This document shows positions 17,537 to 34,466 of a stretch of DNA of 64,000 nucleotides, piece by piece. Source of the stretch: Massilia sp. H6 (GTDB taxonomy: Bacteria; Pseudomonadota; Gammaproteobacteria; Burkholderiales; Burkholderiaceae_D). Both the position numbers and the translations under genes were made by a program. Positions within the stretch are counted from its first letter, which is position 1; each line of letters starts with the position of its first letter. The stretch covers positions 3,348,001-3,412,000 of the forward strand of contig NZ_CP103371.1 of assembly GCF_024802625.1 (NCBI RefSeq), read 5' to 3'. The notes under the pieces are model-generated. The model saw only the letters and a list, made by a program, of their open reading frames with translations, had not been told where the DNA came from and did not search any database.

Positions 17537-17556
17537 GCTGCCCTTTCCTGCAGCCC

Positions 17557-17763
17557 TCAGGCCAGGATCTCCACCGTCGCGCGAATGACGTATCTGCCAG
17601 ACCCGCCAGCTGGTCGGCTTGCGCAATGGCGAGCACAGTGATATTTGGCAGCCAGCAGCTTGCTCTCTGGCCTGGTGATTGCACGGCTGTGGCAAGCGCC
17701 GTCGATCTTGACCTTCACATGACCATCAACTATTGTAGCGATAGAATTTCGCAGCGCAATCAC
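17557..17763 (-). CDS. Doubtful small ORF in the spoT - glycosyltransferase gap
   Basis: The 313-base gap 17537-17849 has no clear gene. The only suggestive frame is this minus-strand one of 68 codons, starting GTG at 17763-17761 with GGAGGA just upstream (two-base spacing, too short for a normal site). The product, containing DGHVKVKIDGACHSRAIT, resembles no family I know. The rest of the gap holds the promoter region for the island glycosyltransferase; no terminator for spoT is evident. Confidence 0.2.
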   Translation of the reverse strand: MIALRNSIATIVDGHVKVKIDGACHSRAITRPESKLLAAKYHCARHCASRPAGGSGRYVIRATVEILA

Positions 17764-17849
17764 ACTCCTCCGGTCTCACCTTCCCTCGCCGGCTATCGCG
17801 CCGGGACCGCTTAATCACCTACCGCCCTGCAGGGGAATGGCCCCCCTTC

Positions 17850-20072
17850 ATGCATGAAGCAATGATGTTACCGCTTAACGAACAGATCCAGCAGGTCACC
17901 GATGAGGCGATGCAGTGTGCGCTGCAAGAAGCCATGGCAGGCCGCATCGAACAGGCAGGAAAGCTGTATCGGGCCATCCTCGAACTCCAACCGGGCCATG
18001 CGGAAGCGCATTTCGGGCTGGCGATGCTTGAGCAATCCGCTGGAAACATGACTGCCGCGATTCCCCATTTTGCTGCAGCGCTTCAGGGGGATCCGGAACG
18101 AGAAAATTACTGGCTGACTTATCTCGACGCCCTCATGTTCGCGCGCCAGTTCAGCACCGCACACGAGCTACTCGGCCTTGGGCGAAGCCATGGCCTGCAA
18201 GGTCACGCGGTCGATGCGATCGAGCAGCGGCTGGTGGCTTCCGGCGCACCTACCGTGCAGGACGTCGATGAGGGTACAGCTCTATTCGCGCAGGGCCGGT
18301 ATGAGGCGGCAGGCGAGGCCGCGCGTCTGCTTACCGAGCGGTTTCCACAACATGGTTCTGGCTGGAAATTGCTCGGCGCGGTCCATTACCTGAAGGGCGA
18401 GATTGTGCAAGCAATGGCCGCGGTGCAAAAGGCAGTCGCTTACGCACCCGACGACGCTGAAACACTTAGCAACCTGGGACTGCTACTGCAGGAAACCGGC
18501 CAGGCCGCCGAAGCCGAACGCGTCCTGCGCCGGTCGATCACACTGCAGCCGCACAGCAGCCATGCGCACAATCACTTGGCGTTGGCGCTACTTGCATCCG
18601 GACGTCTGAAACAAGCACAGGCTAGCGCAAGTACCGCAGTAGCGCTCGATCCCACGCATGCCGAATTTCACAACACACTAGCCATGGCCCTCGACCGTCA
18701 GGGCCGCTCGATTGAGGCGGTCGATGCTTACCGTCGGGCGCTGGAGTTGGCGCCAGAGCGTGCCGACCTGCACAGTAACATGCTGTTATGCATGAGCCGG
18801 ATGGAGAACATGACGCCTTCCGCACTATTCGCCGAACACCTTTCATTCGGTGAGCGTCTGGAACAGCGCATCGGTACGCCACGCGTATGGCCGAATACGC
18901 TGGATCCGAGACGGTGCTTGCGCATCGGCTTTGTCTCGGGCGACCTCCGAAACCATGCGCTCGCCAGTTTTGTCGAACCGATTTTCGAGCGCCTTGCCGG
19001 TCGCCAGGGTCTTGCTTTGCATGCTTACTACACTTTCCCCGTGCACGATGCCGTCACCGAGCGCCTGCGCGGCTACATGGCCCAATGGCGCGACGTTGCC
19101 GCGCTAAGGGACGCGGAGCTGGACGAGTTAATCTGCGCCGATGGTATCGATATTTTGATCGACCTTGCTGGCCACACCGCCTACAATCGATTGCCCCTGT
19201 TCGCACGCAAGCCGGCGCCGCTACAAGCAACCTGGATTGGCTACCCTGGCACCACCGGCCTGCGCGCGGTGGACTATTACCTGACCGACCGCTTCATTCT
19301 GCCGCCGGGACAATACGATCATTTATTTACGGAAAAGCTGGTACACCTCCCGGTGTCGGCGCCATTTGCGCCCGTTGCCGATGGCCCTGAAATTGTAAGC
19401 TTGCCCGCATTGGCAAATGGCTACGTGACCTTCGGCAGTTTTAATCGCGTTGACAAGATTCGCCGCAACGTCGTGGCTCTATGGTGCGTGCTGCTGCGCG
19501 CGCTGCCAGAAGCGCGGATGCTCGTGGCTGGACTGCCGGAAGGGGGCAATTATGAGCAGCTGCAAGCCTGGTTCGCTGAGGAGCGTATCGATGGTGCACG
19601 CGTGCGCTTCCAGGCCCGTACTGGCATTTACGACTATCTCGCGCTGCATAACCAGGTCGATATCAACCTCGATACCTTTCCGTACTCGGGAGGCACTACG
19701 ACCTTGCACGCGATGTGGATGGGCGTGCCGACGCTGACGCTGATAGGCGACACTGCAGCAGGACGGCAGACGGCGTGTATCCTAGAACATAACGGCCTGG
19801 CGCAGTTTGCCAGCCATGACGCCGACGATTTCGTTCGCAAAGGAATAGCCGCCAGCACCGACCTGACCGCATTGTCGGCGTTGAGAGCCACCATGCGTGC
19901 GCATTTTCCGCGGTCTACGTCAGATGACATCACGCGGATCGCCGATGGTGTCGAGAATGCACTGCGAATGATGTGGCGGGGTTGGTGCGCCGCCCTGCCC
20001 GCCGTCAGCTTTGAAGCACCGCAGGTACTCGCGCAAGAGGCATCCATGCGCGGCTTTATTTCTCGCCGCTGA
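17850..20072 (+). CDS. TPR-domain O-GlcNAc-transferase-like glycosyltransferase (GT41, SPINDLY type)
   Basis: Predicted cytosolic transferase that adds a sugar to Ser/Thr of a protein. The 740-residue protein has N-terminal tetratricopeptide repeats over about residues 5-330 (KLYRAILELQPGHAEAHFGL, AVAYAPDDAETLSNLGLLLQ, ALDPTHAEFHNTLAMALD) and a GT41 catalytic half (CLRIGFVSGDLRNHALASF, WIGYPGTTGLRAVDYYLTDR, VDINLDTFPYSGGTTTLHAM, MGVPTLTLIGD). Similar TPR-GT41 proteins glycosylate flagellins and adhesins. The start among ATG 17850, 17862 and 17865 is uncertain, because AGGGGA at 17831 is too far from each. Codon use is less GC-rich than in spoT. Its last 40 bases overlap a DegT remnant in another frame, so its C-terminus probably arose at a recombination joint. 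Confidence 0.9.
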   Translation: MHEAMMLPLNEQIQQVTDEAMQCALQEAMAGRIEQAGKLYRAILELQPGHAEAHFGLAMLEQSAGNMTAAIPHFAAALQGDPERENYWLTYLDALMFARQFSTAHELLGLGRSHGLQGHAVDAIEQRLVASGAPTVQDVDEGTALFAQGRYEAAGEAARLLTERFPQHGSGWKLLGAVHYLKGEIVQAMAAVQKAVAYAPDDAETLSNLGLLLQETGQAAEAERVLRRSITLQPHSSHAHNHLALALLASGRLKQAQASASTAVALDPTHAEFHNTLAMALDRQGRSIEAVDAYRRALELAPERADLHSNMLLCMSRMENMTPSALFAEHLSFGERLEQRIGTPRVWPNTLDPRRCLRIGFVSGDLRNHALASFVEPIFERLAGRQGLALHAYYTFPVHDAVTERLRGYMAQWRDVAALRDAELDELICADGIDILIDLAGHTAYNRLPLFARKPAPLQATWIGYPGTTGLRAVDYYLTDRFILPPGQYDHLFTEKLVHLPVSAPFAPVADGPEIVSLPALANGYVTFGSFNRVDKIRRNVVALWCVLLRALPEARMLVAGLPEGGNYEQLQAWFAEERIDGARVRFQARTGIYDYLALHNQVDINLDTFPYSGGTTTLHAMWMGVPTLTLIGDTAAGRQTACILEHNGLAQFASHDADDFVRKGIAASTDLTALSALRATMRAHFPRSTSDDITRIADGVENALRMMWRGWCAALPAVSFEAPQVLAQEASMRGFISRR

Positions 20073-20239
20073 ACACTGACTTTCCGATGTACGCGGGCGT
20101 CGATTCGGCAGCGCCGGAGCGGCTGCCGGTTAGCAACCGTGTGGCGCGCCAGGTAATCTGCCTGCCGATCTATTCAACGCTTGACCCGGCGCAGGTGGCT
20201 CGCATGGCGGACGTGATCCGCACAAGCGCAATGATCTAA
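20033..20239 (+). pseudogene. 3' remnant of a DegT/DnrJ/EryC1 sugar aminotransferase
   Basis: In the frame one base off that of the glycosyltransferase, translation from about 20033 to TAA 20237-20239 gives GIHARLYFSPLNTDFPMY, then LPVSNRVARQVICLPIY, then LDPAQVARMADVIR. These are the consecutive C-terminal motifs of PLP-dependent nucleotide-sugar aminotransferases (VioA/WecE/ArnB family). No start and no catalytic lysine remain; upstream the frame is closed by a TGA at 20012-20014. The fragment is out of frame with, and overlaps, the end of the glycosyltransferase. It reads as a scar left when an aminotransferase gene was lost or replaced by recombination. Confidence 0.8.
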
Positions 20240-20259: not shown

Positions 20260-21444
20260 ATGACATTCCAAACATTTCACCACGCAACGCCAGACGATTT
20301 CAGTGGCCTCTACAAGTATATAGACACCGCTTTCGAGAATCCGAGCGATTTCGATGAGGTCTATTTTCTGGGTGACCACACGGATATCTTCGCGCTACGC
20401 GCTTTTCCGATTGCCCGATCGCTGCCGAATTTCGCTGGACTGGCGGTATTTTCGGTCTCACCCGAAAAGCGCATCCGCATTGCCCAGCAGTTGCCGGTAC
20501 GAGCCAATTGGCGCTTCCTCGACATTGCCGAGCTAATCGCACGAGCTTCCTCGAAACGCATACTGGTGATCGACTTCAACAACAACCTGACGGGAAAGAA
20601 TATCGCCACGCAGCTCACGGGGCATGGCATCGTGGTCCACGACTGCCTGTTCGCTCTGCACCAGCTGGACCTGGAACATACATACCAGCGCGTACGCGAG
20701 GAGCGCGAGCACGTGGCGGCCAACCTGGAAGGCTTTATCGCCCTGGCCGAACGCTTCGGTGACGATTGGTCGCGCACCACCCTACTGGCGCGCCTGCGGG
20801 CCTTGCTCACGCTCGACCGGCGCCCGCTGATCGAGGCCAGCTTCCCGCTCAACGACTTCATGAACAACTTCGCGAGCCAAGCCGGCCTGGTGGTGGGCGA
20901 GGACGACATCTTCGTAGATGCCGGCGCTGCACACGGCGACACGGTTTCAAGTTTCTTCCATCTCGCGCGGGGAAAGTACCGGGCGATTCATGCGTTCGAG
21001 CCGGATTCGTCGAACTTCACGGCGTTAAAGATGCTATGCAGTTATTTGCCGAATGCGCATCCGTATTTCGCCGGCCTCGGGCGAGAGGAAGCTGAAATCG
21101 TCTTCTATGAAAACCCGGCGAACCGTTTCGGCAGCAATTTCTCTGGTGGTGGCCATGAAACCAAGATGAAAATCATGACAATTGATGACACTGTCGGCGA
21201 AGCCACTCTGGTTAAAATCGACGTTGAAGGTTGGGAGGCGCAGGTTCTCGAGGGCAGTGCCCGGACAATTGCGCGCTGCAAGCCGGACATGACCATCTCG
21301 GCCTATCACTATGCAAAAGATATCCCCGAGCTGCTGGCGACGGTGGACGGGATCGCGCACTATAAAAACCTAGCCCTGCGCCACTATTCGTCCAGCCTGT
21401 ACGACACCCAACTGGTATTCTCGGACCGCCAGGATTTCCGCTGA
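20260..21444 (+). CDS. FkbM-family SAM-dependent methyltransferase
   Basis: A 394-residue protein with a C-terminal FkbM methyltransferase domain. SAM-binding motif I is DIFVDAGAAHGDTVSSF, then AIHAFEPDSSNFTALK, and later TLVKIDVEGWEAQVLEGS, all typical of FkbM enzymes that O-methylate sugars and polyketides. About 210 residues precede it (LGDHTDIFALRAFPIARSL, then RILVIDFNNNLTGKNIA). This N-terminal part is not assigned and may be a sugar-recognition domain. AGGGG lies seven bases before ATG 20260. The gene follows the glycosyltransferase on the same strand, so O-methylation of the transferred glycan is the likely role, an inference from context. Confidence 0.85.
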   Translation: MTFQTFHHATPDDFSGLYKYIDTAFENPSDFDEVYFLGDHTDIFALRAFPIARSLPNFAGLAVFSVSPEKRIRIAQQLPVRANWRFLDIAELIARASSKRILVIDFNNNLTGKNIATQLTGHGIVVHDCLFALHQLDLEHTYQRVREEREHVAANLEGFIALAERFGDDWSRTTLLARLRALLTLDRRPLIEASFPLNDFMNNFASQAGLVVGEDDIFVDAGAAHGDTVSSFFHLARGKYRAIHAFEPDSSNFTALKMLCSYLPNAHPYFAGLGREEAEIVFYENPANRFGSNFSGGGHETKMKIMTIDDTVGEATLVKIDVEGWEAQVLEGSARTIARCKPDMTISAYHYAKDIPELLATVDGIAHYKNLALRHYSSSLYDTQLVFSDRQDFR

Positions 21445-21453
21445 GATGTCGGA

Positions 21454-22077
21454 TCAGCCGCCCACGATCACCATCGGGTGCGCATGTGAGCTGTGAATGA
21501 AGGTCTTGGCGGCCACGTCCGCCTCGATTCTTCCAGGCCGGTCGATTACGCACTGCGCGCCGATCGCGACACCGTGGCCGATGCTCACGCCCAGTCCGAG
21601 AGTGGCCTTATTGCCGATCCTGGCGCCATGTCCGACCGTCACGCCGGCATCGATGAAGGCCGACTGGCCAATCTCGACGCTGCCGCCGACGACGGCGCCG
21701 GGCCCGATTACCACGTTGAAGCCGATTCGGCAGCCAGGCTGAATGATGGCGCCCGCGCCAATCCACGTGTTGTGCAGAATTTTTACGTTAGCGCCCACGA
21801 TGGCGCCGCGCTCGACCAGCGGCGGCATCGCAACACCGTGGCCGCGTACGATGCTCATCAGCTCGAGACGGTAAAAATTCAGGAATCGTGCATCGGCGGC
21901 GACGAAGGCCGTCGCCCCGTCCCGGTCGAGTGCGTTGAGCATTGCCTGCAACGCTGCCGGATCGGACGCTGCAGGCAGTTCTACCGGACGCAAGTCGAGG
22001 TCAGGCGCGAGTTCACGCCACGCCGCCATCGCCCGTTGCAGGTCGAGGCCACTGCCTATCACATGCTTACAAGGCAA
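21454..22077 (-). CDS. Hexapeptide-repeat acyltransferase (NeuD/PglD-like)
   Basis: A 207-residue left-handed beta-helix protein. Hexad-like repeats run from about residue 95 (VERGAIVGANVKILHNTWIG, AGAIIQPGCRIGFNVVIG, then SAFIDAGVTVGHGARIGNKA) to a short capping tail. The family transfers acetyl or longer acyl groups from CoA or ACP to sugar amines or hydroxyls. The N-terminal part lacks the GxGG nucleotide-fold motif seen in the other acyltransferase of this operon. The start overlaps the end of the Rieske gene by 11 bases, so it is the last gene of a translationally coupled operon. It converges on the FkbM gene with a nine-base gap. Confidence 0.82.
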   Translation of the reverse strand: MPCKHVIGSGLDLQRAMAAWRELAPDLDLRPVELPAASDPAALQAMLNALDRDGATAFVAADARFLNFYRLELMSIVRGHGVAMPPLVERGAIVGANVKILHNTWIGAGAIIQPGCRIGFNVVIGPGAVVGGSVEIGQSAFIDAGVTVGHGARIGNKATLGLGVSIGHGVAIGAQCVIDRPGRIEADVAAKTFIHSSHAHPMVIVGG

Positions 22078-23215
22078 AGCTCCCCTCCATCAGGTTCAGG
22101 TACCAGTGCTCGATGCCTGCGTTGACAAACTCGTAGTCGCCAAGGTGTGCCGGCCTGGCGCCTTCGTATAGAGTTTGTTGAATCTGCTCCATCACATCGA
22201 TATCCTCGCGCAGCACCTTATCCGCACCCATCATGTGCGCGTGCAACACTGCAGCCGACGCGGAATACGGGCGTTTCTTCTTCGCCGTCACAAAATACAC
22301 CATGAACTCGGTGCGTCCCGGTCCAACCGGGACATGGTGTTCGACGATAAAGGAGTGGCCGCCGTCGGCCGAGGCAATATGCAGGTTCGGGAAAACCAGC
22401 CAGTTGTAATACCAATCCTGGTCGCGGTAACGCTCGACATTGCTATGCCAACGCTCGTTGGGCGCGGCTTGCATCGGCGCGTCGCGCCCGCCGCCGCTGA
22501 AGCTGCGCAGCAGGGCCAGCGCCCGCTCACGGTCTCCGATACCCTGTTCGCGCTGGCGCCGTAGCGCCTCCACGCCGCACTCGTCGATGCTGGCTTCAAA
22601 CCTGACCTCCTGGTACAGCGTGCGCGCATGCAGGTAACGCGGGTGATGTTCGTCGCGCAGGTTTTCATACGCGAGCTTCCAGTTGAAGCGGCCGTCGTAG
22701 GTCGTCATGATGACTTCGCCATCAAACGCGGCTGAGGACGCCGCCAGCGAGGCTAGCATGGCTGCGCCGAACTGGCGCTTGATCGGCAGCGGGTCTGCCG
22801 ACAGGTTCACGAAAACCAGGTTGCCCACCACCTCCAGCGCAAAGCGGCGCAGGCGGATGCAGGCCCGCTCTTCCGGCGCAAACCGGAACAGCGCGTCTTC
22901 ATGAGGAATTCTGGTGCCACCCTCACTGTCGAAACTCCAGCCGTGATAGCTGCAAAATAATGGACGCACGCCATGTGGCTGGACCTGGATCGGATTTTGC
23001 CGGTGCGGGCATATGTTCTCAAAGGCGCGCAGTTCGCCATGAAAGTTTTGCACCACAACCGGAATGCCGAACAAGGTGCGCTTGATGAAAGCATTATTCT
23101 TGTCGAGCATAACTTTCAGGCCGATGAATTGCCACAGCGGCTTGAATAGGAGGTCGCGCTCACGCCCGAACCAGGCTTCGTCGATATACGCTTGCGCAGG
23201 CATATTGGACTGCAT
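22067..23215 (-). CDS. Rieske non-heme iron oxygenase, ring-hydroxylating-type alpha subunit
   Basis: A 382-residue oxygenase. The Rieske [2Fe-2S] ligands are C69-P-H71 and C88-x2-H91 (ENICPHRQNP, LFCSYHGWSF). The catalytic iron motif N-x2-D-x2-H-x4-H is N185, D188, H191 and H196 in ENLRDEHHPRYLHA. The C-terminal domain is full length, so a complete active enzyme is expected. It needs a reductase or ferredoxin, and none is encoded nearby. Its ATG overlaps the stop of the preceding acyltransferase (TAATG). An oxygenase in an acyl-sugar cluster is unusual; oxidation of the sugar or acyl chain is a guess, comparable to CMP-sialic acid hydroxylase, which also uses a Rieske centre. Confidence 0.88.
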   Translation of the reverse strand: MQSNMPAQAYIDEAWFGRERDLLFKPLWQFIGLKVMLDKNNAFIKRTLFGIPVVVQNFHGELRAFENICPHRQNPIQVQPHGVRPLFCSYHGWSFDSEGGTRIPHEDALFRFAPEERACIRLRRFALEVVGNLVFVNLSADPLPIKRQFGAAMLASLAASSAAFDGEVIMTTYDGRFNWKLAYENLRDEHHPRYLHARTLYQEVRFEASIDECGVEALRRQREQGIGDRERALALLRSFSGGGRDAPMQAAPNERWHSNVERYRDQDWYYNWLVFPNLHIASADGGHSFIVEHHVPVGPGRTEFMVYFVTAKKKRPYSASAAVLHAHMMGADKVLREDIDVMEQIQQTLYEGARPAHLGDYEFVNAGIEHWYLNLMEGSFAL

Positions 23216-23874
23216 TATTTAAAGCGAAATACTTTGGCTGGGTTGCCGATCATGGTGACACCGGGAGGCACGTCGGCCATCACCACCGCGCCGGCGCCGA
23301 TAACGGCACCGTCGCCGACAGCCACGCCTGGCAGGATCGTCGCGTGCGGATGAATGACGACGTCGCTCCCTATACGGGCGCGCCCGCCCACGAAGGCGAA
23401 ACTGCCGATGGTTGCGTACGAACCGATTTCCACTTCGTAGCCAATCACGGCGGTAGACATGATGAAGACGAAGTCACCCAGGTGCGTATCGACGCCAACC
23501 CTTACTTCTGGCTCGAATAAGCAGCCCACGCCCATGGTGAGGCCGATCGCCTTGTGCAGTCCCGTAAGCAGGCTCATGAAAGCGGCCCCCTGCGCGAGCA
23601 GCGGGGCGGCGAAGCGGCGGCGCTGGGCAGGGTCGCCCAGCGCACACAGGAACTCCTCATACGGGCGGCAGCGGTAGGTCAGCGGGTCGCCGAGCAACGG
23701 CAAAGGTGCACCTGCTGCAAGCCCGGCACGGTTGTCAAGGAACCCCACAACCCGCCAGTCCACACCATTGGCCACATCGTGCTGCATCATATTGTAGACA
23801 GTACGGCCAAAGCCGCCGGCACTGATAATCAGCGCATTCTTCATTCCGGGCACTTCTTCCATCTTCAGGTCCAT
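23215..23874 (-). CDS. Sugar acyltransferase, NeuD/PglD family
   Basis: A 219-residue two-domain protein. The N-terminal fold has the glycine motif ALIISAGGFGRTVYNMM typical of PglD/NeuD, and the C-terminal left-handed beta-helix runs through VGVDTHLGDFVFIMSTAVIG and IGSDVVIHPHATILPGVAVG to GNPAKVF. PglD N-acetylates a UDP-4-amino sugar, and NeuD O-acetylates sialic acid. Here a longer acyl donor is possible because an ACP and KAS III lie in the same operon. The chosen ATG 23874 has GGAGG six bases upstream and overlaps the preceding SDR by ten bases; internal ATG 23844 (MKNALIISAGG) is the alternative. Confidence 0.87.
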   Translation of the reverse strand: MDLKMEEVPGMKNALIISAGGFGRTVYNMMQHDVANGVDWRVVGFLDNRAGLAAGAPLPLLGDPLTYRCRPYEEFLCALGDPAQRRRFAAPLLAQGAAFMSLLTGLHKAIGLTMGVGCLFEPEVRVGVDTHLGDFVFIMSTAVIGYEVEIGSYATIGSFAFVGGRARIGSDVVIHPHATILPGVAVGDGAVIGAGAVVMADVPPGVTMIGNPAKVFRFK

Positions 23875-24608
23875 GGAATTCCTCCGTCCAGATGCAGCTG
23901 GGTGCCGGTCACCTTGCGGCTGACATCGGCCAGCAAATAGATGGCGGCGTAGGCCACATCTTCCGGCCGGCCCAGCCCGAGCGGGTACATCTTCGCTTTA
24001 TCTTCGAGCCAGGCCCGGTCCTGGTTCACCAGCGGCGTATCTACCAGCCCCGGCGCGAGCGCATTGGCGCGCATCGCGCGTGGTGCAATCTCCAGGGCCA
24101 AGCATCGGATCATGCCCTCGAGGGCCGCCTTGGAAGCCGAGTAGGCTCCGACGCCTACCGTGCCGGTATGGGCGGCGATCGACGAAAGGAACACGATCGA
24201 TGCCCCGTTGCGCAGCGCTTTCTTGTTCAGGAGCCCTGTAGTCAGCATCAGCGGGGCCATCAAGTTGCTGTCCAAGACTTTCTGTACAAAAGAAACACGC
24301 AGCAGGCGCACCGGAGTAACGCCGGGGATGCCCGCCGCATGCACTACGCCGTCGAGTTCGCCGGCTTGTTCCACCAGCCAGGCTAGCTGGGTCGGGTTAG
24401 TCAGGTCCGCTTCCACAGAGAAGTGTCCCTCTCCCTCGAGCATGGCCAGGGTCGCTTTCAGGCGCTCCTGGTCACGTCCGTTAAGAATCAGGCGCGCGCC
24501 GGCACGCGCGCATTCGACGGCGACCGCGCGGCCGATTCCGCTTGAAGCGCCGGTCACCAGCACGGTTTTTCCCCGCAGGTGGAAAGGATGGTGAAAGCGC
24601 TCGCTCAT
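23865..24608 (-). CDS. Short-chain dehydrogenase/reductase (FabG-like)
   Basis: A 247-residue NAD(P)-dependent oxidoreductase. The cofactor motif is TGASSGIGRAVAVE (TGxxxGxG), the structural motif is HAAG, and the catalytic S-Y-K set is in FLSSIAAHTG and YSASKAALEGM. The RxANALAPGLVDT and VTGTQLHLDGG segments are typical of 3-ketoacyl-ACP reductases. Beside KAS III and ACP it would reduce a 3-ketoacyl-ACP to a 3-hydroxyacyl-ACP, although a sugar substrate cannot be excluded. Its ATG overlaps the stop of the second SDR by four bases. Confidence 0.88.
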   Translation of the reverse strand: MSERFHHPFHLRGKTVLVTGASSGIGRAVAVECARAGARLILNGRDQERLKATLAMLEGEGHFSVEADLTNPTQLAWLVEQAGELDGVVHAAGIPGVTPVRLLRVSFVQKVLDSNLMAPLMLTTGLLNKKALRNGASIVFLSSIAAHTGTVGVGAYSASKAALEGMIRCLALEIAPRAMRANALAPGLVDTPLVNQDRAWLEDKAKMYPLGLGRPEDVAYAAIYLLADVSRKVTGTQLHLDGGIPWT

Positions 24609-25351
24609 CGCACGTGCAAGCTAAGGCCGGAGTCGATGACCAGCGAAGTACGCGACACCCAGCGACTGGCAGGCGCGAGCAGCCAAGCGATGCTTGCCGC
24701 GACGTCGCCAGGTTCGATGATGCCTAGCGGCGCCAGGCCGGCCTTTTCATTGGGACTCATGACGCCTTGCAGACCGTCCAGCATCGGGGTGGCGACATAG
24801 CCCGGCGAGACACAGTTGGCGCGCACGCCGTTCTTAGCCTGCTCGACCGCGATGGTGCGCACGGTTGCCGTGAGTGCGGCCTTAGCGCCGGAATAGATTC
24901 CGGTGGCGTTCGGTGCCACGTGTTCGGCGACCGCCGTCACGTAGACCAGGGAAGCCCCCTGTGCGAGCTTGCGCCTGGCCAGCAGGGCCTGGGTCAGCAG
25001 CACCGGGGCGTCGTAGTTCACAGCGAAGATCGTGTCCAGGTGACGCTGCGAGACCAAGCGAATAGGTGCCAGCGCGGCTGCGCCGGCACTAAATACACAT
25101 CCGTCGAGTGCAACCACGGAATCCACCAGGGACTGGCGAGCCGCGGGATCGGTAAGATCACCTGACACGGCCTGATGACCCTCGCCCGTCAGCCCGGCAA
25201 CGACCTGTTCAAGGCGGGCGGTATTGCGTCCACAGGCGACAATGCGCGCACCCATGTCCGCACACAGGCGCGCAGTAGCCTCGCCGATGCCCGACGACGC
25301 CCCCGTCACGAGGATCGACCGTCCTTCGAGGCTAAACGGCGAGGCGCTCAC
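24605..25351 (-). CDS. Short-chain dehydrogenase/reductase (FabG-like), second copy
   Basis: A 248-residue SDR. The cofactor motif is VTGASSGIGEATARL, and the catalytic segment is YVTAVAEHVAPNATGIYSGAK, with Tyr and Lys in YSGAK. The site usually held by the SDR catalytic serine reads LVYVTAVAEHV, with Thr-Ala rather than a clear Ser-Ser, so activity should not be assumed identical to FabG. The C-terminus ends SRTSLVIDSGLSL. It resembles the adjacent SDR in layout and probably arose by duplication. Four-base overlaps on both sides place it firmly in the operon. Confidence 0.85.
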   Translation of the reverse strand: MSASPFSLEGRSILVTGASSGIGEATARLCADMGARIVACGRNTARLEQVVAGLTGEGHQAVSGDLTDPAARQSLVDSVVALDGCVFSAGAAALAPIRLVSQRHLDTIFAVNYDAPVLLTQALLARRKLAQGASLVYVTAVAEHVAPNATGIYSGAKAALTATVRTIAVEQAKNGVRANCVSPGYVATPMLDGLQGVMSPNEKAGLAPLGIIEPGDVAASIAWLLAPASRWVSRTSLVIDSGLSLHVR

Positions 25352-26385
25352 GACTCGATCAATTCAGGAAATACTGCATCTTCGATGTCCACGATGCAAC
25401 CGCCCCAAGACAGGCCGATGCCAAAGCCCGACATCAATACCTTTTTCTTCCCGCCCAGGAGTGCCTCGCGGATGCGCACCGTCATCGTGACTGGAATCGA
25501 GGCGCCGCTGGTGTTGCCGAAATCGTGCAAGGTACAAGGCACCTTATCGGGCTCCAGGCCCAGCTTCTTGCGGATGGTCTCGTTGATCATCTTGTTTGCC
25601 TGATGAAAGATGAAATAGTCGACGTCACCGATAGGGCATTGCGCGAACTCGAGCAAGCTGCGCACCGCCGACGGCACCCGCTGGGTCGAGAAGCTCAATA
25701 CGGCCGGGCCGTCAAGCATCAGCGCCGTCGGGCTGCGCCAGATACCGTCGTCATCTTTTACCGGCACCGCATGCTGCAGCCCAAAGGGCTCACGGTGACC
25801 ACCCGCCGGCAGCATGATGGCCTGGTAACCGCTGCCATCGCTATTGAGGTCGAAATACATCGGCGGCGCGTCCGGATCGTATTCAAGCGCGGTGGCGGTA
25901 CCGGCGTCCGAAAACAGCGGCTCGATCACCGAAGCAGCCTTGTCGCCGACCAGTAGCAGAGCTTTTCCAATGCCGCCCGCTGCCATCATTGAGCCCAGCA
26001 CGTGCAGGCCGAAAGCATAGGCAGAGCAGCCCAGGTTAATGTCGAAAGCGATGGTAGTTGACTTGAGCCCAAGCCGGTCTTGCAGGATGATGGCCGTGGC
26101 AGGAATTAGATAGTCGGGTGATTGGGTGACGACGATCAGCGCGTCGATCTCGTCACGATCCCAATTCAGATCCGCGAGCAGGCGCTCGGCCGCGTCAAAG
26201 GCAAGGTCCGAAAAGTTTTGCCATTCGGAGCAAATGCGGCGCGTTTCAATGCCAATGTTGCGAACAATCCGTTCACGAGCCGAACGGATCTGAGGCGGAC
26301 AATCCTTGAGGTTCGAGAGTATGCGCCGCGGTACACAGGTAGCCATGCCGGCATAACGTACATTGCGAATAATCGCCTGGGCCAT
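25348..26385 (-). CDS. 3-oxoacyl-ACP synthase III family (KAS III/FabH-like)
   Basis: A 345-residue thiolase-fold condensing enzyme. The catalytic triad is visible: C120 in DINLGCSAYAFG, H261 in YFIFHQANK and N291 in DFGNTSGASIPV. Such enzymes condense an acyl-CoA primer with malonyl-ACP. Beside a dedicated ACP and two SDRs it would supply a short 3-hydroxyacyl group, for example 3-hydroxybutyryl, for sugar decoration; a related gene set accompanies flagellin glycosylation in Pseudomonas. It starts three bases downstream of the ACP stop. It is separate from housekeeping fabH, which normally lies in the fab/plsX cluster. Confidence 0.9.
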   Translation of the reverse strand: MAQAIIRNVRYAGMATCVPRRILSNLKDCPPQIRSARERIVRNIGIETRRICSEWQNFSDLAFDAAERLLADLNWDRDEIDALIVVTQSPDYLIPATAIILQDRLGLKSTTIAFDINLGCSAYAFGLHVLGSMMAAGGIGKALLLVGDKAASVIEPLFSDAGTATALEYDPDAPPMYFDLNSDGSGYQAIMLPAGGHREPFGLQHAVPVKDDDGIWRSPTALMLDGPAVLSFSTQRVPSAVRSLLEFAQCPIGDVDYFIFHQANKMINETIRKKLGLEPDKVPCTLHDFGNTSGASIPVTMTVRIREALLGGKKKVLMSGFGIGLSWGGCIVDIEDAVFPELIES

Positions 26386-26388
26386 GGG

Positions 26389-26631
26389 TCAACCAATCAA
26401 TTTGTACACGTCACTGACCAGTTGACATCCCGCTAGGTCCTTACCGGCGATGGCCTTGTCATACTCCATATCAAACATGATGATCACGCCAAGCGCCGCC
26501 AGGGAATCCCACTCAGCAAGCGTCTTTAGGTTGGTGTCGCCGGTGAGTTGAACCTCGTCTTGGAAATCGACGGCGTTTTTAAATTTTTCGACAAATTGCT
26601 CGAGGGTGTCCATTGCTGCCTTCATGATCAA
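26389..26631 (-). CDS. Acyl carrier protein of the island operon
   Basis: An 80-residue acidic protein, first gene of the minus-strand operon. The phosphopantetheine site is S43 in LAEWDSLAALGVI, which matches the DSL motif of ACPs though without the flanking housekeeping sequence. It probably carries the acyl chain made by the adjacent KAS III and SDRs. The start could be ATG 26631, 26625 or 26613 (residues 1, 3 or 7). It is too divergent to be AcpP, so it is a dedicated carrier. Confidence 0.85.
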   Translation of the reverse strand: MIMKAAMDTLEQFVEKFKNAVDFQDEVQLTGDTNLKTLAEWDSLAALGVIIMFDMEYDKAIAGKDLAGCQLVSDVYKLIG

Positions 26632-26970: not shown

Positions 26971-27603
26971 CTATTTTTTCGGCGCGAGTGCCAGGATACG
27001 GTCGAAGGCCGCGCAGGCACCGGCACAAGCTTCGGCGACCTGTTCCGGGCTGCGCACGTTGGCGCGCAAGGCCAGCATGCAGGCGCGCCAGCGCGGTCCC
27101 GGCCCACCCGCTTCGCCGCGCAGGTAGCGCAGCGGGTGCGGCGCGAAGCGCTCGGCCAGGTTCGCGTGCAGCACGGCGCCGCCCAGTTGCGAGCCCTCGA
27201 TCACATAGACCACGCCCCAGCGGTAGGCTGCACTGGCACCAGTGGGCCAGGCGGCGGTCGGACGCGGCGCCGGCGGCGCCGGCATGCCCGGCTCGCGCAG
27301 GTCGGCGTCGATCAGGGCCAGGCGCCGGGTCGGCGCCAGGCTCGGCTCGGCCTGCGGGCCATCGGCGTAGCCATCGAGCCAGGCTTGCAAGGGCAGCAGC
27401 CAGTCGCGCACCATGGCCAGGTGCTCGGCGTAATCGAGCAGCGAAGGCGCCGGGGCCGCCAGCGGCAGGCCGCTGTCGAGCCGCTCGTGGCGCGAGGCGG
27501 TGGCGGCGCGCAGCGCGGCCAGGATATCGGTGGTAGCGGTGTCGGCCCGCGCGGCTTGGCTGGAAAGGTTCATGAGGGTAGGGCAAAACGGCGAATTGCT
27601 CAT
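26971..27603 (-). CDS. Biliverdin-producing heme oxygenase-like protein
   Basis: Predicted to open heme to biliverdin, iron and CO. The 210-residue protein has the likely proximal heme ligand H39 in LRAATASRHERLDSGLPL, and the distal-helix glycine region appears as YVIEGSQLGGAVLH, which matches bacterial HO (BphO/PigA-like) proteins. A competing frame of similar length overlaps it, but only this frame carries these motifs. The ATG at 27603 lacks a clear ribosome site; ATG 27573 is an alternative. It follows greB by 18 bases. No bacteriophytochrome gene is seen nearby, so a role in iron release is as likely as chromophore supply. Confidence 0.8.
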   Translation of the reverse strand: MSNSPFCPTLMNLSSQAARADTATTDILAALRAATASRHERLDSGLPLAAPAPSLLDYAEHLAMVRDWLLPLQAWLDGYADGPQAEPSLAPTRRLALIDADLREPGMPAPPAPRPTAAWPTGASAAYRWGVVYVIEGSQLGGAVLHANLAERFAPHPLRYLRGEAGGPGPRWRACMLALRANVRSPEQVAEACAGACAAFDRILALAPKK

Positions 27604-33002: not shown

Positions 33003-34466
33003 ATGGCATCCGTAATCAATACCAACGTCGCATCCCTGAACTCGCAGCGTAACCTGTCGACCTCGAGCGCCTCCCTGAACACCTCGATCCAGCGCCTGTC
33101 GTCGGGCCTGCGCATCAACAGCGCCAAGGACGACGCTGCCGGTCTGGCCATTTCGGACCGCATGAGCTCGCAGATCCGCGGCATGAACCAGGCAACCCGC
33201 AATGCGAACGACGGCGTGTCGATGGCCCAGACGGCCGAAGGCGCCCTGTCGAGCTCGGGCGACATCCTGCAACGTGTCCGCGAACTGGCAGTCCAGTCGT
33301 CGAACTCGTCGAACTCGGCCAGCGACCGCAAAGCCCTGCAGACCGAAGTCACCCAGCTGACCTCGGAACTGAACCGTATCGCCAACACCACTGAATTCAA
33401 CGGCCAAAAGCTGCTGGACGGCTCGATGGGCACCGCGAACTTCCAGGTTGGCGCCAATGCTGGCCAGCTGATTTCGATGACCGGCGCAAACTTCAGCACC
33501 TCGACCTACGGCAACAACCGCCTCGACGCCAGCGCAGTCCAGGCCGGCACCGCGGCAACCAATGGGGTCACTACCGGCGCCATGGCGATTAATGGTTCGG
33601 AAGGTTCGAAAACCATCACCGTGGTCGAGGGCGCCTCCGCCAAAACGACAGCAGCAGCAATCAACAATGCCAGCGGCGAAACCGGCGTCACCGCAACCGC
33701 CAAGACCGAATCCCTGGTGAAGGGCACTGCAAACAAGTCGTTCTCATTCGAGCTGACTTCGGATAACAGCACTGCAGTCACGGTCTCGTTCTCGGTTGGC
33801 AACACCGATGCGAACGGCTATGCCGCTGCCATCAGCGCCTTCAACGCCCAATCTGCCAAGACTGGCGTTACCGCATCGTACGATGCGGATAACAACGGCC
33901 TGAAGCTGACCAACGCCGACGGCAACGACATCAAGCTGAAGAACACCTCGGCCGATGCCGGTTCAGTTGCAACCATGGGAACCTATGACTCAGCCGGCGC
34001 AGCACTCGCTACTCCAGCTGCAACGAACGGCGCAAACGGTGCCACCGCCGTCGGCCGTCTGGTGCTGGACTCGGAGAAGAGCTTCTCGGTGGTTGACGCC
34101 AGCGGCTTCAACCTCGATGGCGGCAGCTCCACCGGTTCGTCGGCCCTGAAGTCGGTCGCCAACCTCGACGTCAGCACCTTCGACGGCGCCCAGTTGGCCA
34201 TCAAGGTTGCCGATGCTGCCCTGGGCGCGGTCAACGGCCAGCGTGCCCAGTACGGCGCACTGCAGTCGCGCTTCGAATCGGCAATTTCGAACCTGGCGTC
34301 GACCACCGAGAACCTGTCGGCATCGCGCAGCCGCATCGTCGACACCGACTTCGCTTCGGAAACCGCAAAGCTGACCCGCGGCCAGATCCTGCAGCAGGCT
34401 GGTACCTCGATGCTGGCCCAGGCCAACTCGCTGCCGAACGGTGTCCTGTCGCTGCTGCGTGGATAA
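33003..34466 (+). CDS. fliC: Flagellin
   Basis: The filament subunit. The 487-residue protein has conserved N-terminal helices ([19 protein letters not shown] through about residue 140) and a C-terminal D0 domain ending [17 protein letters not shown]. The centre (about residues 180-390) is an Ala/Thr/Ser/Gly-rich variable region, including [18 protein letters not shown], with many potential O-glycosylation sites. GGAGAAA seven bases before the ATG is a good ribosome site. It is preceded by a sigma-28 promoter and followed by a strong terminator, so it can be transcribed alone at high level. Confidence 0.97.

Follow-up and report, generated by a model that had tools for sequence, protein, structure and literature searches.

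The viosamine island of Pseudomonas syringae pv. tabaci 6605 comprises vioA, vioM, vioT, vioS, vioB, vioR and acp, and it makes a modified viosamine and attaches it to flagellin (PMC3927599). The FlmG protein of Caulobacter is a modular soluble flagellin O-glycosyltransferase (PMC7591256). The DNA analysed here, called the window, is the whole stretch of 64,000 nucleotides from Massilia sp. H6. Its gene cluster resembles the viosamine island, in which an aminotransferase, a methyltransferase, a glycosyltransferase, a beta-ketoacyl-ACP synthase III (KAS III), an acyltransferase, a reductase and an acyl carrier protein (ACP) lie together and serve flagellin glycosylation. Of these components the window has all except for an intact aminotransferase, and an intact DegT protein is encoded elsewhere in the genome.

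A DegT remnant behind the glycosyltransferase

The glycosyltransferase gene, window 17850..20072 (+), was identified from its open reading frame and Pfam matches. It encodes a TPR + GT41 (SPINDLY/OGT-type) protein of 740 aa, matching PF13844 with an E value of 2.5e-36 and several TPR models. On the same strand, window 20033-20239 translates as ARGIHARLYFSPLNTDFPMYAGVDSAAPERLPVSNRVARQVICLPIYSTLDPAQVARMADVIRTSAMI, 68 open residues followed by TAA as the tail's own stop. Residues 2-62 correspond to positions 299-359 of the 360 in Pfam profile PF01041 (34 bits, cut-off 19.8 bits, E 2.4e-8), and the tail was recovered independently by a whole-genome search (E 1.1e-7). The DegT frame is 2 mod 3 and the glycosyltransferase frame 0 mod 3, the two overlapping for 40 bases from 20033. 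Thus both the translation and the profile match bear out the preliminary description of C-terminal sugar-aminotransferase motifs in a shifted frame, closed by a proper stop. The case named there as contrary to this reading, an intact aminotransferase continuing upstream, was not found: read backwards, the DegT frame closes at a TGA at 20012-20014, and the DNA upstream of the tail encodes no aminotransferase, PF01041 positions 1-298 being absent.

The C-terminal small-domain motifs of the family (profile positions 299-359) are present in order, and the alignment with intact DegT proteins of the genus, which had been proposed as a check, placed all of the tail's motifs in that order. The PLP-binding large domain with its catalytic lysine, assigned in the relatives to the SFHATK stretch, is missing. 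Given that the large domain is absent, the tail is a fragment and not a member enzyme. Window 20033-20239 is the C-terminal remnant of a DegT/VioA-type sugar aminotransferase, a pseudogene fragment and not a new kind of system. Peptide-pattern searches of public genome contigs confirmed no occurrence of the tail.

Homology to GT41 proteins stops at ...AVSFEAP (20021), where stand-alone relatives end or nearly so; the first clear similarity to DegT is at GIHAR (20039). The last 11-14 residues of the glycosyltransferase must therefore be aminotransferase DNA read in the wrong frame, close to the 'last dozen' previously suggested. Comparison with relatives places the joint in the 17 bases between FEAP and GIH (20022..20038, +). 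In six relatives carrying a fused gene this spacer is 945-978 bases long. The window is shorter by 928-961 bp, a difference that leaves a remainder of 1 on division by 3 in each of the six comparisons and so explains the frame shift; against the genomes G040, G009 and G039 the missing DNA is 958-961 bp only. The exact joint cannot be placed because the relatives are too diverged. The direct repeats that were to be looked for at the breakpoint were not found: none exceeds 7 bases, and the longest word shared with each fused relative is 6-7 bases, a length given with no shuffled control. No other genome among those searched has the joint, and the window contains no tRNA as a possible insertion site. 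The interval that separates the GT41 gene from the RelA/SpoT-type gene, 17537-17849, measures 313 bp, compared with 23-45 bp in G007, G044, G042 and G043. Gene calling would miss the loss of DegT and misread the C-terminus of the glycosyltransferase.

To judge the condition of the tail, intact clusters were compared in pairs, and DegT-tail identity was fitted against the average identity of five cluster proteins. Among intact clusters the tail follows the cluster. All eight pairs involving the window, which are not independent of each other, fall under the fitted line by 8-25 points, and for the three closest clusters (80-82% identical) the tails are 51-52% identical where ~76% is expected. 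In the DegT tree the terminal branch of the tail is 0.6 against a median of 0.088, a rough figure as the tail fills 18% of the columns. In a codon-position test for relaxed selection, changes at positions 1+2 were slightly but not significantly in excess: once outlying rows were set aside, most comparisons gave 0.49-0.62, compared with an average of 0.52 (sd 0.06) for intact tails. The remnant is so far free of internal stops and is, to judge from these sequence comparisons, decaying.

The fused gene of relatives and a probable deletion in place

In six other species of the genus (G040, G025, G009, G039, G056 and G057; loci L070 to L075 respectively) GT41 and a complete DegT form one in-frame open reading frame of 1105-1120 aa. 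The G040 protein (G040:C5, L070:5504-8866), for instance, matches both Pfam domains, DegT with E 8e-104. A cluster with the same GT41-to-DegT spacing was also seen in G149 (L133), which belongs to another genus of the family. That an aminotransferase was lost at the joint, as first proposed, agrees with the six relatives, which keep a complete DegT at this position behind the glycosyltransferase. The idea that it was a separate gene does not: since the relatives have an in-frame fusion, it was probably a domain of a fused gene that was lost.

The genes that follow were identified by cluster comparison together with Pfam, unless stated otherwise. The gene for an FkbM-type methyltransferase (20260..21444, +) starts ~20 bp past the DegT stop, compared with ~18 bp in G040. 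The FkbM-type slot is occupied in different loci by two distant types (~25-28% identical), one in L071, L074 and L133 and the other in L070, L072 and L073, a pattern that points to the sugar-modifying step being exchanged as a module. Behind it the genes from hexapeptide protein to ACP are divergent, all on the - strand: a hexapeptide-repeat acyltransferase (21454..22077), a Rieske / ring-hydroxylating oxygenase-like protein (22067..23215), a NeuD/PglD/VioB-like sugar N-acyltransferase (23215..23874; NCBIfam was also used, the best match, TIGR03570, scoring 142.8 bits and thus under its cut-off of 160.8), two short-chain dehydrogenases/reductases (SDR; 23865..24608 and 24605..25351, both from cluster comparison), a KAS III-like protein (25348..26385) and an ACP-like protein (26389..26631), the last having no Pfam match and being assigned from its size, its position adjoining KAS III and its retention in the cluster. 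Behind the fused gene of G040, G009 and G039 come FkbM, hexapeptide, Rieske, NeuD/VioB-like, SDR, SDR, KAS III and ACP, in the order and orientation seen in the window and with protein identities of 57-95%. The suggestion that more of the sugar-synthesis genes had perhaps gone with the aminotransferase is not upheld, as FkbM to ACP are all there in the order of these three genomes. Beyond the cluster, 26971-27603 (-) encodes a conserved 210-aa protein adjoining greA/greB, 65-80% identical in relatives and with no Pfam match. A flagellin N-terminal domain at 33015..33425 (+; G000:C1:3381015-3381425 in the window genome; PF00669, E 6.3e-50) places the cluster at a flagellin locus.

Given that the fused relatives match the window in the tail and its stop, in the short distance to FkbM and in all later genes, and that a single deletion is enough, we favour a deletion within a fused GT41-DegT gene at this locus and consider it the probable, though by no means certain, origin of the remnant. 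On this view the entire fused cluster would have moved to the locus and lost the DegT body there. The ancestor would have carried a DegT/VioA-type domain fused behind a TPR-GT41 flagellin-type glycosyltransferase. Some 0.93-0.96 kb, not a multiple of three, would have been lost from just past the last conserved glycosyltransferase residue to about DegT profile position 299. The glycosyltransferase would since then read about a dozen codons of DegT DNA in the wrong frame before stopping at 20072, and the tail, deprived of its PLP-binding body, would make no enzyme. The catalytic part of the glycosyltransferase is of full length, and the enzyme probably remains active. Against this reconstruction, it draws on species whose cluster proteins are only ~80% identical, the window GT41 falls in no clear group with the fused GT41 proteins, and its identity to that of G040 is 63% compared with 81% for the cluster.

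An intact stand-alone DegT gene (G000:C1:1411002-1412042) also exists in the window genome; it belongs to the same subfamily, shares 68-71% identity with the fused domains and lies 1.8 kb from another flagellin match. With a threshold of E 1e-60 and at least 68% identity, this subfamily was counted in 22 genomes of the genus, the window's included, with one copy each except for two in G042. It is present only in fused form in six of these and as separate genes in the remainder, and no separate copy was found in the six fusion-bearing genomes. A second DegT match of the window genome, C1:2089792, is absent from the matches to the C1:1411002 enzyme at E 1e-60 or better. In a tree, fused and stand-alone DegT form separate groups (support 100/100). 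The tail groups with the fused proteins, although placing it with the stand-alone ones is not rejected (AU p 0.30). In this set, species have either a fused or a stand-alone aminotransferase, never both intact; only the window genome was seen with the stand-alone gene and a fused-type copy, and there the fused-type copy is broken. To judge from this pattern of copies, redundancy probably allowed the loss of DegT. The 4-amino sugar of the pathway is probably supplied by the intact stand-alone enzyme. As a remnant the tail is unremarkable: a redundant enzyme has been partly lost from what looks like a flagellin-glycosylation cluster.

Other possible origins of the joint

The remnant could instead be the ragged edge of an insertion and not the product of a deletion. 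The GT41 gene would then be the resident one of the relA-greA/greB flagellin locus. The incoming cluster, FkbM to ACP, would already have been broken inside DegT when illegitimate recombination joined it to the 3' end of the resident gene. We hold this to be possible but clearly the less probable course. A stand-alone GT41 does occupy the RelA/SpoT-to-greA/greB interval in G007, G044, G042, G043, G002, G045 and G053, the first of these being the closest species (RelA/SpoT 96% identical), and the fused cluster lies elsewhere in its host genomes. It also speaks for this course that the identities of GT41 and cluster are decoupled (59% against 83% for G025-G056, 81% against 73% for G056-G057), an indication that clusters seem to exchange their GT41. 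Against it, the GT41 resident in G007 shares only 63% identity with that of the window, too little for a simple orthologue beside a RelA/SpoT of 96%. The origin of the window GT41 was tested with trees of the whole protein and of residues 1-250, 251-724 and 401-724, with AU tests. Residues 1-250 are nearest the resident type, and their grouping with five cluster GT41 proteins is rejected (AU p 0.007). Residues 401-724, on the other hand, come closest to the fused type. There the six resident proteins group together to the exclusion of the window protein (100/98), though membership of the window protein in that clade is not rejected (AU p 0.24). The N-terminal third therefore leans towards the resident and the C-terminal half towards the fused proteins, neither with full support. 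The window GT41 (17850-20021) may be a chimera, resident-like over 1-250 and fused-like over 401-724, which the statistics do not establish.

An ancestor with adjacent but unfused GT41 and DegT genes, from which a deletion took the intergenic part and most of DegT, appears improbable. Separate adjacent genes do seem to exist in other genera of the family: in G280 and G345 (genus g40) and G250 (g6) the GT41 reading frame stops and the DegT tail lies 0.9-1.0 kb further on. Within the genus, however, every species with DegT behind this GT41 has the fusion, and the sole unfused cluster, that of G002, has DegT upstream of GT41. Removal of the aminotransferase body by an assembly or sequencing error is very improbable, as there is no long repeat at the joint flanks in relatives, the assembly has 3 contigs and 100% completeness, and the lowered conservation of the tail fits a real, old remnant.

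Comparison with known systems

The fused protein of the relatives is a more interesting by-product of this analysis than the fragment itself. Under the search terms used, no paper describing a GT41-DegT fusion was found, and the fusion of a GT41 with a sugar aminotransferase is apparently unreported. We offer only tentatively, as an unlikely extension, the reading that the TPR-GT41-DegT protein is an undescribed bifunctional enzyme which would make an amino sugar and hand it to flagellin, that fused and stand-alone aminotransferases swap across the genus, and that the window captures one species in the course of a return from fused to stand-alone. The window locus resembles the TPR-GT41-DegT loci of the six species in the glycosyltransferase family and the position of the DegT tail, and in downstream gene order for three of the six. 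It differs in that the aminotransferase there is whole and in frame, whereas the window lacks the 928-961 bp and has a broken frame.

Compared with the viosamine island, the window cluster differs in its transferase, which is of the GT41 type, in its broken aminotransferase, and in the presence of two reductases, a Rieske oxygenase and a further hexapeptide protein. FlmG differs in that it uses pseudaminic acid (PMC7591256), but by description it is alike in combining an N-terminal substrate-binding module with a C-terminal glycosyltransferase module in a flagellin context.
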